From: Fidelibacterota bacterium
GTDB lineage: Bacteria > Fidelibacterota > Marinisomatia > Marinisomatales > TCS55
Assembly (NCBI GenBank): GCA_029936965.1
Contig: JAPYRG010000006.1
Location: 29,558-93,557, forward strand
DNA: 64,000 nt
Reading direction: 5' to 3'
Shown here: piece after piece, positions 6,345 to 15,832 of the stretch
How the letters are laid out: each line of letters begins with the position of its first letter
Numbering within the stretch: position 1 is the stretch's first letter
Notes under the pieces: model-generated
Databases searched by the model: none
Told to the model about the DNA's origin: nothing
What the model saw: only the letters and a program-made list of their open reading frames with translations
Position numbers and translations under genes: made by a program

Positions 6345-7619
6345 TTATTGAAATCCTTCTTTGACAATTCGCTTCCCTTCTTCAATATCTACTTTACTTA
6401 AGAAATATGCACCTAGAATAAATAATAATAAAATCGACAATATTCCCACCCTTACATTTCCATAAATAACAGTAACTGTCCCCACTAGGGCTGGACCAAT
6501 AATTGCAGCAAATTTACCAAACATGTTATAAAATCCAAAAAATTCAGCTGATTTAGATGGTGGAATAATTCTCGTATATAGACTACGACTAAGAGCTTGA
6601 ATGCCGCCTTGAAAAAGGCCAATTAATATTGCCAAGATATAAAAATGCGCTACTTTTGTCATTAAATAGCCAAAAAATGTAATAATTGAGTACCCTATAA
6701 TACCTATCATTATTCCTGTTTTGGCTCCAACCTTTTGTGCCATCCATCCATATATTAAAGCAGCTGGAAAAGCAATAAACTGCACAATTAATAGAGCAAT
6801 AATTAAACTCTCATTTGGAAACCTTAAAGACTTTCCATAGTCTACAGCCATTTTTATTATTGTATCCACTCCATCAATATAGAAAAAATATGCCAATAGG
6901 AATAAAGCAACAACTCTCATATTACGGATTTCTTTGAATGTTTGTATTAATTGCTTCCAACCCATATTAATTGATTTGATTAAATCAACAGACTTATCAT
7001 CATTTGGCTCAGATACAAACAATATTAAAGGGACAGTAAAAACCAACCACCAAATTGCGACACTTACAAAGGAAAATCTAATTGCTGTTGCGCCATCTGG
7101 AATACCGAATAAATCAGGTTTCAAATACATAATTACATTTAATAAAAACAACAAACCTCCACCAAGGTAACCAAGTCCATATCCTAGAGATGACACCGCA
7201 TCTACCTTTTCTTCAGTAGCTAAATCAGGAAGAAGAGAATCATAAAAAATATTTGAACTAGCATAGCCAATCGATGCTATCATATAAAGTAAGACTGCCA
7301 TCTGCCAGTGTCCCTGATTGACTATCCATAATCCCCCCGTCATGATTGATCCTAAAAAAGCAAAAAAAATAAGAAACTTTTTCTTTTTGGAACCTTGATC
7401 TGCAATTGCTCCTAGAAAAGGAGCTAAAGCTGCCACCACAATTGCATACAATGAATTAGCCATACCAAGATAGAATGTGCTTTGACTCGGAATATTAGGA
7501 TCAGCCCAATATTCTTTAAAGAAAATGGGGAAAAACCCGGCCATAACTGTAGTAGCATAGGCGCTATTTGCCCAATCATATAATGCCCAGCTCCAAATAG
7601 AACGTTTATTTGCTTTCAT
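6345..7619 (-). CDS. MFS transporter of the UMF1/Atg22-like family
   Basis: 424 aa from the ATG at 7617-7619. The frame is open to 7685, but the first 22 residues of the longer version are not family-like, and MKANKRSIWSWALYDWANSAY is the classical N-terminus. Family marks are YDWANSAYATTVMAGFFPIFF, the loop-2/3 signature LAPFLGAIADQGSKKKK, and FQGGIQALSRSLYTRIIPPSKSAEFFGFYNMFGKFA. About twelve hydrophobic helices are visible. UMF1 proteins are inner-membrane carriers of largely unknown substrate. It is the last gene of the DUF1343 operon, about 30 bases after the barrel-like gene, so export or import of a muropeptide product is a reasonable inference, not a demonstrated role. Confidence 0.85.
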   Translation of the reverse strand: MKANKRSIWSWALYDWANSAYATTVMAGFFPIFFKEYWADPNIPSQSTFYLGMANSLYAIVVAALAPFLGAIADQGSKKKKFLIFFAFLGSIMTGGLWIVNQGHWQMAVLLYMIASIGYASSNIFYDSLLPDLATEEKVDAVSSLGYGLGYLGGGLLFLLNVIMYLKPDLFGIPDGATAIRFSFVSVAIWWLVFTVPLILFVSEPNDDKSVDLIKSINMGWKQLIQTFKEIRNMRVVALFLLAYFFYIDGVDTIIKMAVDYGKSLRFPNESLIIALLIVQFIAFPAALIYGWMAQKVGAKTGIMIGIIGYSIITFFGYLMTKVAHFYILAILIGLFQGGIQALSRSLYTRIIPPSKSAEFFGFYNMFGKFAAIIGPALVGTVTVIYGNVRVGILSILLLFILGAYFLSKVDIEEGKRIVKEGFQ

Positions 7620-7648
7620 AAGATCTATAAAAGATAAGAAAAATTTAC

Positions 7649-8812
7649 CTACCAAGCTTGAAAATAAGCCTGGACACCTATCCAAGTATTGGCGAAAGTA
7701 TATGTATGTCGAGTAAAATATGGAAATGAAGCCCCTACTTCAATATCAAATAATACTGGCCCAAAACTTTTTATAGGATGAACATTATGAAAAGTAGCTA
7801 AAATATACTGCCTAACTTGTGTCTTTTTTGTATCATGAACTATTTCTCCATTCCTTGTTCTGCTGATCATCCAATTATCCCAATTTAAATTTTCCGATAA
7901 AACAAAATCTCTTTCTGTTCTAACGCTATTAATACCTGTAGTAATAGATAATCTATCCGGAAATAATTCTAATTTCCCCATAGCAGATAATAATAATTCA
8001 TCACCAAGTTGGTGTAGAAAAGAATTTCCTATTTTAGATATAATTGAATCAGGATTCGTTTCTGATCCCCATAAAAATGACACCGGGGTATTCACAACCT
8101 CTCTGGAATATTTCCCATGTTCAATGCGCCAAGTAATATTCACTAATCTTTTTTTAAAGTACTTAAAAAACTCTCCAAACAAAGAATATGAATATCGTGT
8201 CATACCATTGCCAACAGGTAAATCAAAAAATTGAGAAGGAATACCGTTTTCATTTCTTGATTTTGATTTATACGGACTTAATCTTTTAGCAGTAGGAAAT
8301 CGCAAGCTAACACCACCATAAATAGACATTGGCTCTTTTCCGGTCCATGAAGGATAACCATATAATAATATTTTCATTCCTAAACTTGCATCACCAAGGC
8401 CCGAGGTTGATCTTTTATCAGGATAATAAAAGTTTAATAAAGAATCCAAAGGATATGATAAAGAATCGAGAATTATTTCCTTTGACCAATCTATTTTATT
8501 ACTTAACGATTTATAAGAAGGTAATAATAAGCTAAATGTCATTCGATCTGATAGACCATATTCAATATGTATATCCCTTTTATTATAATTCATTTTATTC
8601 ATTTGATGGACAAAAGCAGCTTCCGTTGAATCATTCGCCATATAACTTATATCTCTTATACCTTTATTTAATAGTCCGCCGGATCCTATCCAATTACCTG
8701 AACCAATACTATTAATAATTGATATACGCCATACACTCCTTGGTATTGTGAAAAAAGTTTGGGTATGTACAATTGAAAAAAGAAATATAAAAAGATAAAT
8801 AAATCTATTCAT
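7649..8812 (-). CDS. Putative outer-membrane beta-barrel protein
   Basis: 387 aa from MNRFIYLFIFLF at 8812, the ATG that begins a clear signal peptide; the frame is open further upstream but that part lies inside the previous gene. The mature protein is rich in alternating hydrophobic strands with aromatic ends (for example IHIEYGLSDRMTFSLLLPSY, SIYGGVSLRFP, YSYSLFGEFFKYF, FDIEVGASFPYF) and ends FANTWIGVQAYFQAW, as expected of an outer-membrane barrel. No specific family recognised. It overlaps the upstream DUF1343 gene by 8 bases, so it probably serves the same substrate, perhaps as a pore for peptidoglycan-derived sugars. Confidence 0.65.
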   Translation of the reverse strand: MNRFIYLFIFLFSIVHTQTFFTIPRSVWRISIINSIGSGNWIGSGGLLNKGIRDISYMANDSTEAAFVHQMNKMNYNKRDIHIEYGLSDRMTFSLLLPSYKSLSNKIDWSKEIILDSLSYPLDSLLNFYYPDKRSTSGLGDASLGMKILLYGYPSWTGKEPMSIYGGVSLRFPTAKRLSPYKSKSRNENGIPSQFFDLPVGNGMTRYSYSLFGEFFKYFKKRLVNITWRIEHGKYSREVVNTPVSFLWGSETNPDSIISKIGNSFLHQLGDELLLSAMGKLELFPDRLSITTGINSVRTERDFVLSENLNWDNWMISRTRNGEIVHDTKKTQVRQYILATFHNVHPIKSFGPVLFDIEVGASFPYFTRHTYTFANTWIGVQAYFQAW

Positions 8813-10103
8813 AAAGTAAAAAACGATTACGGAATTCACTAAATCGAAGAATGTCATGTAACCATAATGGGGGTAAATAGTTCACAGGCTTTCCTTGAGC
8901 CGCAAAAATTCTTAATAGATTATAACCAAATAGTTTATCAACATATCCACCTGCCAACCATTCAAAATTCTTCTCATATAATTGATATGTTAGAATCATC
9001 AAGGCTGTAGAAGTTGCAAGTGGATCAAACGTATTGCGGTTTGTAATTTCCATTAATAAACCACTACAGTTCTGACCGGCATAATAAGGTCCTCTTTCTT
9101 CACCATAAATAGATTCTGGCACATAACGTATTTGATGGAAATACACACCAGGAAGATTAAGTTTATTTATTTTTTTCCATAATAATCGTCCGGATATCCA
9201 AGGTGCTCCTATACGAAAAAAAGGACTCTCAGTACCATGCCCTACATTCAAATTAGTCCCTTTGAACAAATTCATACCCATATAGGCCAGAAGGGATTCA
9301 ACATTATCCACCCCTGGTAAAATTGAAATAAATGGAATCCCGGTATCGTCCATCCACATGGTCCTCTGCCAATTCGACATTGGTATAATCATCAAATTCA
9401 CACGTGCTAAATCTTTTAACCAACCCATTTCATTTACTATAAGTGCATATTCTCCAATTGTTAGTCCATGTCTAATTGGAACTAAATGATAACCTTCAAG
9501 TGATTGGTAAGCAGTCCTCACAACTGGACCATCCATAACATCCCCTCTTAATGGATTAGGGCGATCGAGTAATAAAATAGGTATATCATATTCTGATGCT
9601 TTCTCCATTACTTTTGAAACTGTTGTCATATAGGTACTGTATCTAACACCTGTATCCTGAAGATCAATTAAAATAAGATCTGCATCACGAATACTCCACT
9701 CTGGTGGATACATAACTCTTTTGAATAAATCAACAACTCTGGCCCCAAATATAGGATCTACAGATTTGTCTCCCATCATTTTCAATTTGGGGTCCTCACT
9801 GGCAAACAAACCATATTGAGGCAAAAATATTGCAAGGACGTGTACATCTTCGACCTCTCTTAGCAATGTAAGCAAGTGCTGCCCATTTCGATTAACAGAA
9901 GCCTGATTACAAAGTATGGATATTGTTTTTCCTTTAAGATGAGAAAAATCCATTTGCTCTAATACATCAAGACCGGTATACACTTTCTTTACAAACGATA
10001 AATCAGGTATTAATTCTATTTCCGTATACTTATAGTTCTCACCTATTAAAGAACTTATTAAGAGTAGAAAAAAAATCGAGTTATTATTATATATTAATTT
10101 CAT
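8805..10103 (-). CDS. DUF1343 (NamZ-like exo-beta-N-acetylmuramidase family) protein
   Basis: 432 aa with a signal peptide. DUF1343 landmarks are ILCNQASVNRNGQHLL, LILIDLQDTGVRYSTYM, LLLDRPNPLRGDVMDGP, PIRHGLTIGEYA, GTNLNVGHGTESPFFRIGAPW and LPGVYFHQIRYVPES. Characterised members (NamZ) release MurNAc from the non-reducing ends of peptidoglycan fragments. The usual PEHG motif after the second strand, whose acid is thought important for catalysis, is replaced by PQYG at residues 95-98, so hydrolase activity is doubtful. It overlaps by 17 bases the upstream gene, whose N-terminal half is the same domain. Periplasmic or exported. Family certain, activity not. Confidence 0.85.
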   Translation of the reverse strand: MKLIYNNNSIFFLLLISSLIGENYKYTEIELIPDLSFVKKVYTGLDVLEQMDFSHLKGKTISILCNQASVNRNGQHLLTLLREVEDVHVLAIFLPQYGLFASEDPKLKMMGDKSVDPIFGARVVDLFKRVMYPPEWSIRDADLILIDLQDTGVRYSTYMTTVSKVMEKASEYDIPILLLDRPNPLRGDVMDGPVVRTAYQSLEGYHLVPIRHGLTIGEYALIVNEMGWLKDLARVNLMIIPMSNWQRTMWMDDTGIPFISILPGVDNVESLLAYMGMNLFKGTNLNVGHGTESPFFRIGAPWISGRLLWKKINKLNLPGVYFHQIRYVPESIYGEERGPYYAGQNCSGLLMEITNRNTFDPLATSTALMILTYQLYEKNFEWLAGGYVDKLFGYNLLRIFAAQGKPVNYLPPLWLHDILRFSEFRNRFLLYE

Positions 10104-12747
10104 GATTAAATCTATTTTGTAAATACGGGAGAAAGATACTAATGAAGAGCATAATTAAAGTTCCAGTAAAAACATACCAAGTCCACGCCAATGGAGAGAA
10201 CTTCCAAAAGGATATCATTGAGATTACTGATATAATGAATCCCAAAAGAACTGAAAGCCTCGTTACTTTGATATCAAAGAGTCTTAGTATGAAAAAACCT
10301 AGTATTGCACCATAGATTACCGAAGCTATACTTAATCCAACTTCTACTAGTGGACTATTTGAAGAAGTAAATAACATTGCACCTCCAATAAGTATAATAG
10401 CCCAAAATATAGAAACTAGCCTAGCTATATTTATATTAGTATTTTTCTTTATAGGCTCTATCCAATCAATAACTGTAGCCGATGCCAAAGAATTTATTGA
10501 AGAACTTAAAGTAGACATTGCAGCTGCAAAAATTCCAGCAACAAGAAAACCTGTAAAACCCTTAGGCAAATGAGTCAATATAAACCATGGAAACAGCAAG
10601 TTTGGTTTTAAAGGAATCCCATCATATAAAACCCACATCATCGCTCCTAAAAAAAGAAATATTGCAAACTGAAAAAACACTAATATACCGCTCAATATTA
10701 ATGCTTTCTGACTATCTCTAGCAGATTCAGCAGATAATAGCCTTTGCACCATTAAATGATCTGTGCCATGCGATGCTAAAGATAATAGGAATCCACCAGA
10801 AATGGCTGCTATAAAATTATATGGCATGACAAATAATTCAACTATGGAATTTGGGAAACCCTGAAAAATTGAGAGTTTATCAGCATCTAATAAAGCAGAT
10901 ATTACATGACTAAAACCACCGGGCTCTAAATTATTAATAATATTAAAAGTTACAAATGCACCAAAAACGTATAAGATAAATTGAAATGTATCTGTGTAAA
11001 TAACGGAGCGAATACCACCTATAAGTGTATATATCAATGTAACAAACCCAATAACTAGAATTGAAAAATTAAATGACCAACCAGTAATAAGTGTTAAAGG
11101 TATTGCAGTCATGAATAACCTTACGCCATCAGCAAGAACCCTCATAATAAGAAATGCTGTAGAAACAAATCTTTGAAATCCCACTCCCCATTTATTACCA
11201 ATGAATTGATAAGTAGACTGAATTCCTTCTTCATAATATTTTGGAAGAAAGAACCATGCTACAACTACCCTGCCAATTATATATCCAATTGCAACTTGCA
11301 AAAAACCAAAATTGGTTAAATAAGCTATGCCAGGTATGCTTAGAAAAGTAAGCACAGAAGTTTCCGTAGCTACCACACTAAAAGAAATCATTACCCAAGA
11401 TATTTTTCCATCTCCAAGGAAATATGATTTTGTGTCTTTTTGTTTCCTTCCTGCTAATACTCCAATTAACAAAATTATAGCAATATAAATAAACAATACC
11501 TTTGTATCTAAAGGGCTGAAATTACTTTTGCGAGGATAAATCAAATATTGTTGTCTGATTTCATGAATAAATTTTAGTAATTCTTCATTTTGGATTGATT
11601 TATATAAAGACAACCTAGTCCAATCTTCCTTTTCAATAAAAATAGATATATCTGCAGTACCAACCTTACTATCAAAATTAATAAGATTATTTTCTTTGGG
11701 TTCAAATACTATATCTGGATACATACTTTTAATTACTTTTGCACTTTCAATTGCAATAGTCCAAGGATCATATGCTTCAGAATCAGTTATGTTAATTGAA
11801 AAACCATTACATATTTTGCCCTTAAAAAATCCATCGTTAGGTACAAACACCGCGGGGAAAAATTCTACACCAGGAAGTTTTAACGTTTTCAATTTAAAGA
11901 CTAGATCTGATGCATTATCAATATTAGGATGTACTAAAATTTGATGTTCGCGATCAGTTCCTTTTCCATTTTCAATTATATTATCCGATGCTAATAGATC
12001 ACTTATGGTAAAATATTTTAATTTATTATATGATGTAATATTTGGTGAAATATATTTCCATTGGAGGTTAGTATTTACCCATTCTTCACTGCTCCAATTA
12101 TCCATAGGGATAATTTTTAATTTAGCATTATGATGATATTCTTCATTTAATAATCGAGCTAATTCTCCAATAGTCATACCATGTCTGTAAGGGATAGATA
12201 TCATGTCAAACGGGTTTGCTATACTTTTTTGTGGAATATTACCTGATATGACTGAGCCACCTAATGGATTTGGGCGGTCAAGAATTATTATAGGAGTTTT
12301 TGATAACCCGCAAGTATATAGTATTTGACTTAAAGAAAGGGTATAAACAGTAGATCGTAATCCTAAATCTTGAAAATCAATAAAAACAAAATCTATATCC
12401 TTAATTTTATCTACTATTTCCTTATTTGATAAATTTAAAGTATATATTTCTTCAAAATCATAATCCGTATCCAATTTTTGAACTTTATTAGCATCTATAT
12501 GATCTTTCTTATCTAAATGAATGACTAATTGAAGGTCAAATTCATTATGATGCAAAACTTCAACGCTTGTTAATCCATCCTTATTAATTGCGCCACTATT
12601 TGTAATTAAACAAATACTTTTTCCATTATATTCATATGGATTATTTAATAATTCATCAATACCAAAAGATAAATTGGGTGTAATCTGACCATTACAAAAG
12701 TTTGTTATGGATAATATTATTGAAACACTAGTTAAAATATTTTTCAT
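10087..12747 (-). CDS. Fusion: DUF1343 (NamZ-like) domain plus sodium/solute symporter
   Basis: 886 aa. After a signal peptide (MKNILTSVSIILSITNFCNG), residues about 25-395 form a diverged DUF1343 domain (FVFIDFQDLGLRSTVYTLS, IIILDRPNPLGGSVISG, IPYRHGMTIGELARLL, ENGKGTDREHQIL, LPGVEFFPAVFVPNDGFFKG). From about residue 410 to the end is a complete SSS symporter of 12-13 helices with DTKSYFLGDGKISWVMIS, IPGIAYLTNFGFLQVAIGY and LVAGIFAAAMSTLSSSINSLAS. The join is in frame with no stop or repeat at the boundary. The first domain would sit in the periplasm, tethered to the carrier, handing released sugar to it. At the PEHG site it reads KDHI (81-84), keeping an acid and His. First gene of the operon. 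Confidence 0.88.
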   Translation of the reverse strand: MKNILTSVSIILSITNFCNGQITPNLSFGIDELLNNPYEYNGKSICLITNSGAINKDGLTSVEVLHHNEFDLQLVIHLDKKDHIDANKVQKLDTDYDFEEIYTLNLSNKEIVDKIKDIDFVFIDFQDLGLRSTVYTLSLSQILYTCGLSKTPIIILDRPNPLGGSVISGNIPQKSIANPFDMISIPYRHGMTIGELARLLNEEYHHNAKLKIIPMDNWSSEEWVNTNLQWKYISPNITSYNKLKYFTISDLLASDNIIENGKGTDREHQILVHPNIDNASDLVFKLKTLKLPGVEFFPAVFVPNDGFFKGKICNGFSINITDSEAYDPWTIAIESAKVIKSMYPDIVFEPKENNLINFDSKVGTADISIFIEKEDWTRLSLYKSIQNEELLKFIHEIRQQYLIYPRKSNFSPLDTKVLFIYIAIILLIGVLAGRKQKDTKSYFLGDGKISWVMISFSVVATETSVLTFLSIPGIAYLTNFGFLQVAIGYIIGRVVVAWFFLPKYYEEGIQSTYQFIGNKWGVGFQRFVSTAFLIMRVLADGVRLFMTAIPLTLITGWSFNFSILVIGFVTLIYTLIGGIRSVIYTDTFQFILYVFGAFVTFNIINNLEPGGFSHVISALLDADKLSIFQGFPNSIVELFVMPYNFIAAISGGFLLSLASHGTDHLMVQRLLSAESARDSQKALILSGILVFFQFAIFLFLGAMMWVLYDGIPLKPNLLFPWFILTHLPKGFTGFLVAGIFAAAMSTLSSSINSLASATVIDWIEPIKKNTNINIARLVSIFWAIILIGGAMLFTSSNSPLVEVGLSIASVIYGAILGFFILRLFDIKVTRLSVLLGFIISVISMISFWKFSPLAWTWYVFTGTLIMLFISIFLPYLQNRFNHEINI

Positions 12748-14414: not shown

Positions 14415-14744
14415 ATGGAAATTTTATTTTTATTGATAGTTCTAGTCGTTTTGATTCTAGCAGTTTTTTCTAGTAGAAAAGAACAAGCATCTGCTGCAGA
14501 TAATCGCAAAGATTCTGTTCAAAAAGAAAAGCAAGGATTTGCTGAAGAAGATATCATGACTTATGGACAAGTTCAGCAACGTAGAGAAGAGCTTCTTGAT
14601 GTTCTTGATGATAATCTATCGGAAAAGCCTGAACAACTTGATCAAATAAAAAAAATTGTAAATGAATGGGCAGATTTAAAAATCAAGGCTTTTCAAGACC
14701 GAAGATCATGGGTCAGAAATCCTGATAAAGAAAAATCTAATTAA
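14415..14744 (+). CDS. Small single-pass membrane protein behind the SLC13 gene
   Basis: 109 aa. One N-terminal hydrophobic helix (residues 3-19) precedes a polar, probably helical cytoplasmic part with conserved-looking segments DIMTYGQVQQRREELLDVLDD and WADLKIKAFQDRRSWVR. No family recognised. It follows the SLC13 gene by 10 bases, so it is probably co-transcribed and could be an accessory subunit of the transporter. Its stop overlaps the stop of the convergent alr gene by a few bases. Confidence 0.65.
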   Translation: MEILFLLIVLVVLILAVFSSRKEQASAADNRKDSVQKEKQGFAEEDIMTYGQVQQRREELLDVLDDNLSEKPEQLDQIKKIVNEWADLKIKAFQDRRSWVRNPDKEKSN

Positions 14745-14760
14745 TTTATATATTTTCTTT
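14727..14760. terminator. Weak bidirectional AT-rich dyad at converging stops
   Basis: AAAGAAAA (14727-14734) and TTTTCTTT (14753-14760) flank the overlapping stop codons of the small membrane protein and alr. The stem is entirely AT apart from one G-C pair, so it would be weak, but it gives A- and T-tracts on both strands. Low confidence. Confidence 0.3.
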
Positions 14761-15832
14761 CTGTTCTCCCTCTAATACCTGTTAATATTACATAACTTGT
14801 TGACCCAATATCTTTAGCAATATCATCAACTAGGATTTTATCCACTTCATTCTGTCCAAATATTAATACTTCATCACCTACCTCAACTTCCGCATCGCCA
14901 AAATCTACCATAAATTGATCCATGCAAACTCGTCCTGCTATAGGATGTTTATTGCCTCTTAATGATATAAAACCATTCATATACCATCCTCTTGGAAATC
15001 CATCAGCAAATCCAGTTTGAACAACCCCTATAACTGTATCTTCATTTGCTTCCCAAACGCCTCCATAACTTACCTTTGTCCCAGCCTTTACTTTTCTTAA
15101 TGAAACAACTGGTCCTTTAAATTCCATCACAGGCTTTATGGAAAGGTCTCTTGGAACCTCATCAGATGGAAATGAACCATATAACAACATACCAACACGG
15201 ACTAAATTATATGAACTATGTGGCATATTAATCACTGTACCACTGTTTGAAAAATGTATAAATTTAACTGTTAGATTTATTTTTTCAAGAAACTCTAATA
15301 GTTCATTGAATTGATCAAGTTGATATTCTGCATAACTTAAATCCCCTTCGTCTGCTGTCGCATAATGGCTATAAATTCCATGACAATTGAGTTTTTCATT
15401 TTTAATTGTTTCAATAATTTTATACACTTCATTAAACGATATTCCTAACCTGGTCATACCAGTATCTACCTTTAAATGAAATTTTGGACTATGGTTAGCT
15501 TCGCAAAATAATCTTACATCATCTGGGTCGCATAGATTTAAAGTAATATCTTTTTCAAAAGCAATGTCTAGCATTTGTTTTGTTGGTCTACAGAAAACAA
15601 GTATATCTTCTGTGATCCCAGCATCTCTTAACTCTAATGCTTCATTAAAAGTAAAAACTGCAAAAAATTTTACCCCTTCATTACGCAATACCTTTGAAAT
15701 TTCTATTACTCCATGTCCATATGCATTTGCTTTTACTACAGCCATAATAGGAATATTATTTAACTGATCTTTTATTAAGCGATAGTTATGCGCTAGATTA
15801 TCTAAGTTAATTATAGCTTTAGGGTAAAACAT
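14741..15832 (-). CDS. alr: Alanine racemase
   Basis: 363 aa, normal length. The PLP-binding Lys lies in MAVVKANAYGHG (Lys about residue 34), the second catalytic residue is the Tyr of KVSYGGVWEAN, and GRVCMDQFMVDFGD is the characteristic dimer and substrate-site motif of the C-terminal beta domain. It interconverts L- and D-alanine for peptidoglycan. It ends a minus-strand run (polA, ABC ATPase, permease, deoxyribosyltransferase-like, alr) with 5 bases between it and its upstream neighbour. Confidence 0.95.
   Translation of the reverse strand: MFYPKAIINLDNLAHNYRLIKDQLNNIPIMAVVKANAYGHGVIEISKVLRNEGVKFFAVFTFNEALELRDAGITEDILVFCRPTKQMLDIAFEKDITLNLCDPDDVRLFCEANHSPKFHLKVDTGMTRLGISFNEVYKIIETIKNEKLNCHGIYSHYATADEGDLSYAEYQLDQFNELLEFLEKINLTVKFIHFSNSGTVINMPHSSYNLVRVGMLLYGSFPSDEVPRDLSIKPVMEFKGPVVSLRKVKAGTKVSYGGVWEANEDTVIGVVQTGFADGFPRGWYMNGFISLRGNKHPIAGRVCMDQFMVDFGDAEVEVGDEVLIFGQNEVDKILVDDIAKDIGSTSYVILTGIRGRTERKYIN

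Follow-up and report, generated by a model that had tools for sequence, protein, structure and literature searches.

The locus examined here raises the question of why a domain of the NamZ (DUF1343) family, whose known product is MurNAc, should be built into the same polypeptide as a sodium symporter. The sequence-only reading of the window, a 64,000-nucleotide stretch of a genome from the Fidelibacterota, proposed a one-protein device in which release of the sugar is coupled to its uptake. Our analysis of the frame, its relatives and the remainder of the host genome supports the partnership and suggests that a different protein does the releasing. The fusion points to an uncharacterised uptake route for cell-wall fragments in a marine bacterium of the Fidelibacterota (SAR406), a widespread and mostly uncultured phylum whose first described isolate needs the muropeptides of other bacteria (PMC11652737).

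A NamZ-fold domain and a symporter in one frame

The fused gene (10087..12747, minus strand) is a single uninterrupted frame of 886 coding codons that spans both parts, as the frame itself, Pfam and NCBIfam matches, and orthologues in the genus all indicate. It opens with a stretch that, judged from its sequence (MKNILTSVSIILSITNFCNG; residues about 1-20, 12688..12747 (-)), resembles a signal peptide, followed by NamZ_N (PF07075; residues 45-239, 12031..12615 (-), E 1.2e-39) and NamZ_C (PF20732; residues 258-404, 11536..11976 (-), 3e-20), which together occupy residues 45-404. A complete SSS symporter follows at about residues 410-876, with 13 predicted helices between residues 415 and 876 (10120..11505 (-)) and a match to SSF at residues 442-839 (6.8e-32). 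All three Pfam matches exceed the cut-off; the SSF profile (PF00474) is covered from 1 to 405 of its 406 positions, that is, over the full core, and the NCBIfam 'sss' model TIGR00813 scores 187 bits against a cut-off of 184. The two-family frame described in the sequence-only reading is thus borne out. No ATG lies between the NamZ and SSF parts, the first internal one there being codon 453, within helix 2. Codons 402, 418 and 426 are TTG.

Carriers of the SSS family with 13 helices have their N-terminus outside. Hydropathy of the fused protein gives 13 helices, the first starting at residue 415, and a positive-inside count with the N-terminus outside gives 17 Lys/Arg inside to 4 outside. Helix number, charge count and signal-peptide-like start together place the NamZ part outside the inner membrane, and the prediction of a periplasmic domain ending about ten residues before helix 1 is well supported, as had been anticipated. 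The protein matches the sequence of PDB entry 4k05 at 1.7e-31. AlphaFold, with only 6-7 sequences, gave a low-confidence model of both the whole protein and the NamZ domain; a fold search with this low-confidence model of the fused domain ranked 4k05 and 4jja first.

Conservation and origin of the fusion

Four further genomes of the genus encode the fusion at full length, at 96% (G004), 81% (G001) and 64% (G005 and G003) identity, the G003 copy losing its very end at a contig end; in G002, the first 136-140 codons are followed by the end of the contig. An assembly error had been named as a possible objection to the fusion, and it fails because five genomes, each assembled separately, share the join, the most divergent at 64% identity, so that an artefact of assembly or annotation is exceedingly improbable.

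Where dN/dS could be estimated, the fused NamZ part gives 0.15-0.24, the symporter 0.05-0.13 and NamZ2, a separate NamZ gene downstream, 0.04-0.08; the fused NamZ part is kept by selection, less tightly than the symporter. A decaying pseudogene was considered and is unlikely at a dN/dS of about 0.2. Between the host genome (G000) and G005, identity is 49% in the fused NamZ part, 77% in the symporter and 84% in NamZ2. The five fused NamZ domains fall into a single clade (100%) whose stem is very long. One well-supported grouping suggests that they derive from NamZ2; long-branch attraction is possible, and the placement is unsure. The fused symporter groups in the tree with those of families f3 and f8 and apart from the symporters that occupy this position in other members of its own family, a pattern suggestive of in-situ gene displacement of the symporter part (10087-11505).

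The fused domain lacks the signature motif of NamZ

We aligned 133 NamZ domains, drawn from the loci collected for this analysis. The Glu of the PEHG motif, which we take to be the likely catalytic residue of NamZ, is found in 110 of them. A further 16, every one of the NamZ2 type, have Gln instead, 2 are obscured by ambiguous bases, and the remaining 5 are the fused domains. None of these five contains PEHG. LDKK (in the window residues 78-81, 12505..12516 (-), located by alignment), LDNK or LDDW stands in its place, so that each of the five has Asp where the Glu would be; the loop after the motif is also partly missing. Most other near-invariant residues are kept (D146, Q148, R153, D179, R180, N182, P183 and E217 in reference numbering), and the D-Q-D-G-R, LDRPNP and GE motifs are retained in all or most of the five. 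Positions 149, 287, 291 and 296 are changed in some or all, and some conserved Gly and Pro residues have been lost.

The proposal that the fused domain itself releases MurNAc is therefore not sustained, with PEHG gone from five of five fused domains and its Glu present in 110 of the 133 domains. Like the NamZ/GH171 exo-beta-N-acetylmuramidases (DUF1343; 4k05, 4jja), the fused domain contains both Pfam domains above the cut-off; unlike them, it lacks PEHG, is joined to a carrier and evolves fast. It retains the NamZ fold and, probably, some of the sugar-facing surface, and we do not class it as an exo-muramidase. Loss of PEHG under continued purifying selection makes it look like a retained sugar-binding or gating module rather than a hydrolase. 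The Asp at the Glu position leaves a small chance of activity.

The carrier part

By alignment, the closest solved carrier is the SSS sialic-acid symporter SiaT (5nv9), with which the fused carrier shares the 13-helix core. Asp182, Ser342/Ser343 and Ser345/Ser346 of SiaT, its Na2 and Na3 ligand positions, correspond to Asp, Ser/Thr and Ser/Ser, and equivalents of Ser60/Thr63 also align; the Na+-ligand roles agree with PMC7918813. SiaT differs in its gene neighbourhood, in having no added N-terminal domain, and in Arg135, which we take to bind the sialate carboxylate and which is Ala in the symporter. A Na+-coupled SSS (TC 2.A.21) symporter is the best-supported reading of the carrier part.

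In the literature that we searched, the SSS family is not assigned a peptidoglycan amino sugar as substrate, and our search of open papers found no description of DUF1343/NamZ joined to SSF; the architecture lists of Pfam and InterPro may already record the combination. A functional parallel is MurT of Tannerella forsythia, which takes up MurNAc across the inner membrane for scavenging, together with a kinase and an etherase (PMC7670621, PMC10465942). Import of this kind is what we propose for the fused carrier; MurT, however, was reported as a novel transporter family of its own (PMC7670621), a description that sets it apart.

Neighbouring genes and peptidoglycan-sugar genes elsewhere in the host

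Downstream of the fused gene, on the same strand, lie NamZ2 (8805..10103 (-), identified by profile match and alignments), a conserved 402-aa protein (7649..8857 (-)) and an Atg22-type MFS transporter (6345..7685 (-), profile match). Each of the three junctions is an overlap, of 17, 53 and 37 bp in turn, in agreement with the earlier description of a second DUF1343 gene, a putatively barrel-like gene and an MFS gene, three of them overlapping or nearly so. That NamZ2 has Gln96 (9816-9818) in place of the motif Glu had been overlooked. This Gln is also found in 15 relatives; the Glu is kept in G009, G016 and G040. The NamZ2 group may be a second set of NamZ proteins that has lost catalysis and is under strong purifying selection. 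The 402-aa protein, which follows NamZ2 in most relatives, has no match among Pfam, NCBIfam or PDB profiles. The MFS transporter is a conserved member of the island, its homologues adjoining NamZ in relatives. Neighbourhood comparison adds an alanine racemase (14741..15832 (-)) as a conserved island neighbour, here separated from the fusion by two genes on the opposite strand.

The host also encodes a canonical, intact NamZ1 at another locus (G000:C14), where it is clustered with AnmK, a GH3/beta-lactamase-type fusion, a D-Ala-D-Ala carboxypeptidase and a GH18 enzyme. MurQ and MurA are both present in the host. MurNAc auxotrophy as in Tannerella was considered and dismissed in view of MurA, as was the identification of an APH-type kinase beside MurQ as AmgK, since NCBIfam indicates another identity. 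The BadF/BadG kinase is absent from the genus, though found in the island elsewhere. The step from MurNAc to MurNAc-6P is thus not accounted for, and, with AnmK present, anhydro-MurNAc becomes a serious alternative substrate.

Symporter and NamZ in related genomes

The symporter clade was reduced by clustering to 38 representatives, and in 25 of these the symporter is either joined to a NamZ or lies within 400 bp of a NamZ gene. In other genera, a related stand-alone symporter occupies the same genomic place, commonly with NamZ2 directly after it, an alanine racemase near the pair, and then genes for the 402-aa-type protein and the MFS transporter. The islands of several families add a GH3-beta-lactamase (NagZ/PBP4B-like) fusion and a BadF/BadG-type kinase beside Alr, and in one line the symporter adjoins an AmiA-like amidase. 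A two-gene arrangement in close relatives had been named as a possible argument against the fusion. Separate genes do occur, but commonly with SSF ahead of NamZ, and the window still has this downstream NamZ, as NamZ2.

Fusions in the reverse order, a symporter with a C-terminal NamZ in a frame of about 860-900 aa, are encoded in 14 genomes from five genera of family f16, in the same class. One example (L146:3721-6363, plus strand) has Alr, a GH3-PBP-type fusion and a BadF/BadG kinase in its island; further loci of the f16 type are L154, L156, L157, L159-L161, L163, L172-L175, L178, L204 and L207-L210. In two f16 genera, the symporter and NamZ genes are separate, abutting or overlapping. PEHG is intact in the f16 fusions wherever the bases are unambiguous, and hydropathy reveals an extra hydrophobic segment after the symporter core, an added helix that would place this NamZ outside as well. 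The f16 proteins thus resemble the window fusion in joining the same two families in one frame with NamZ predicted outside, and differ from it in order, intact motif, extra helix and origin. Judged from these sequences, the phylum has seen at least two NamZ-symporter fusions, of separate origin and opposite order. That the two families have been joined either way round argues strongly for their acting on one pathway outside the membrane. The supposition that the fusion is unusual holds for the NamZ-then-SSF order, the opposite order being common in the related family f16. The two forms, one with PEHG intact and one with it lost, would offer a natural comparison of an enzyme turning into a carrier receptor.

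Proposed function and alternatives

The connection of the carrier-NamZ system to peptidoglycan sugars has good support. We tentatively favour, at somewhat short of even confidence, a Na+ symporter whose substrate is MurNAc or something closely related, with the degenerate NamZ as an outer capture or gating module and NamZ1 doing the cutting. The intact NamZ1, encoded elsewhere, would cut; the tethered NamZ-fold ectodomain would bind the sugar in the periplasm, or gate its entry, and would hand it to the mouth of the carrier about ten residues away; and the Na+-coupled inner-membrane carrier would import MurNAc itself or, for instance, anhydro-MurNAc as a close derivative. A more specific version, an SSS importer of a peptidoglycan amino sugar with a catalytically dead glycosidase as its covalent periplasmic substrate-binding subunit, is one that we put forward with greater reserve, as a possibility. 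The exact substrate, sugar binding by the fused domain and hand-over to the carrier we infer only. The cultured Fidelibacter multiformis, of the same phylum, reportedly depends on exogenous muropeptides (PMC11652737), and the repeated pairing and fusion of one SSS subfamily with NamZ provide a specific, testable candidate for the inner-membrane importer of muropeptide fragments. Of the coupling of release to uptake as first proposed, the partnership of NamZ and symporter in scavenging peptidoglycan sugars stands, on the evidence of the neighbourhoods and the f16 fusion; release by the fused domain does not.

Two alternatives concern the fused domain. It may bind nothing and be no more than a degenerate passenger, or else serve only as a structural ectodomain by which the carrier is stabilised or localised. 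The loss of conserved Gly and Pro residues and the fast evolution count against a capture role, as would be expected of a domain with little remaining function; the lower identity between sub-lineages (49% versus 77% in the carrier), the long stem in the tree and the several lost positions agree with this. A dN/dS of about 0.2 and the retention of D-Q-D-G-R, LDRPNP and GE in all or most of the five copies speak for a role under constraint, and we consider a passenger unlikely, if worth serious attention. At the other extreme, the domain could be an active exo-muramidase, so that one protein would both release MurNAc and take it up. Most invariant residues besides PEHG are kept and an Asp is at hand in every copy, and the reverse fusions of f16, which keep PEHG, make such a one-protein device plausible in that family. 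In the window fusion, the whole PEHG and part of the next loop are missing, positions of the G287/G296 type are altered, and selection on the NamZ part is weaker than on the carrier; we therefore regard activity here as improbable.

The remaining alternative concerns the cargo, which could be non-muramic (for example GlcNAc, a D-amino acid or a peptidoglycan peptide), the link to NamZ then reflecting general cell-wall turnover. SSS carriers are broad in their substrates, the conserved partners include alanine racemase and carboxypeptidase-type proteins, and SiaT Arg135 is not conserved in the symporter. NamZ, however, recurs more often than any other partner and is alone in being fused in both orders, and partners such as the sugar-type kinase and GH3 suit an amino sugar better, which makes a non-muramic substrate a rather poor prospect beside the amino-sugar symporter that we favour.

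Other arrangements of SSS carriers

Candidate SSF+NamZ fusions in G183, G184, G206 and G207 proved on reading to be separate genes. In the phylum of locus L072, NamZ and SSF are likewise separate genes, with NamZ first, and no fusion was found there among the matches listed from 395 genomes. At L213-L223, the NamZ genes beside SSF seem to start without a signal peptide, and their products would be cytoplasmic. The symporter subfamily of the NamZ fusions carries a C-terminal beta-lactamase/PBP-type domain, beside an Amidase_3 protein, in G084 (L203:5273-7900, minus strand) and also in G093. A NanM-type kelch-SSF fusion (G010 and G022; L115:7117-9855 and L116:5326-8055, both plus strand) lies in a sialic-acid operon with DHDPS, GlcNAc 2-epimerase and SASA; like the NamZ-symporter fusion, it sets a sugar-handling domain before an SSS carrier in one protein of the same phylum, with a different domain and a different sugar.
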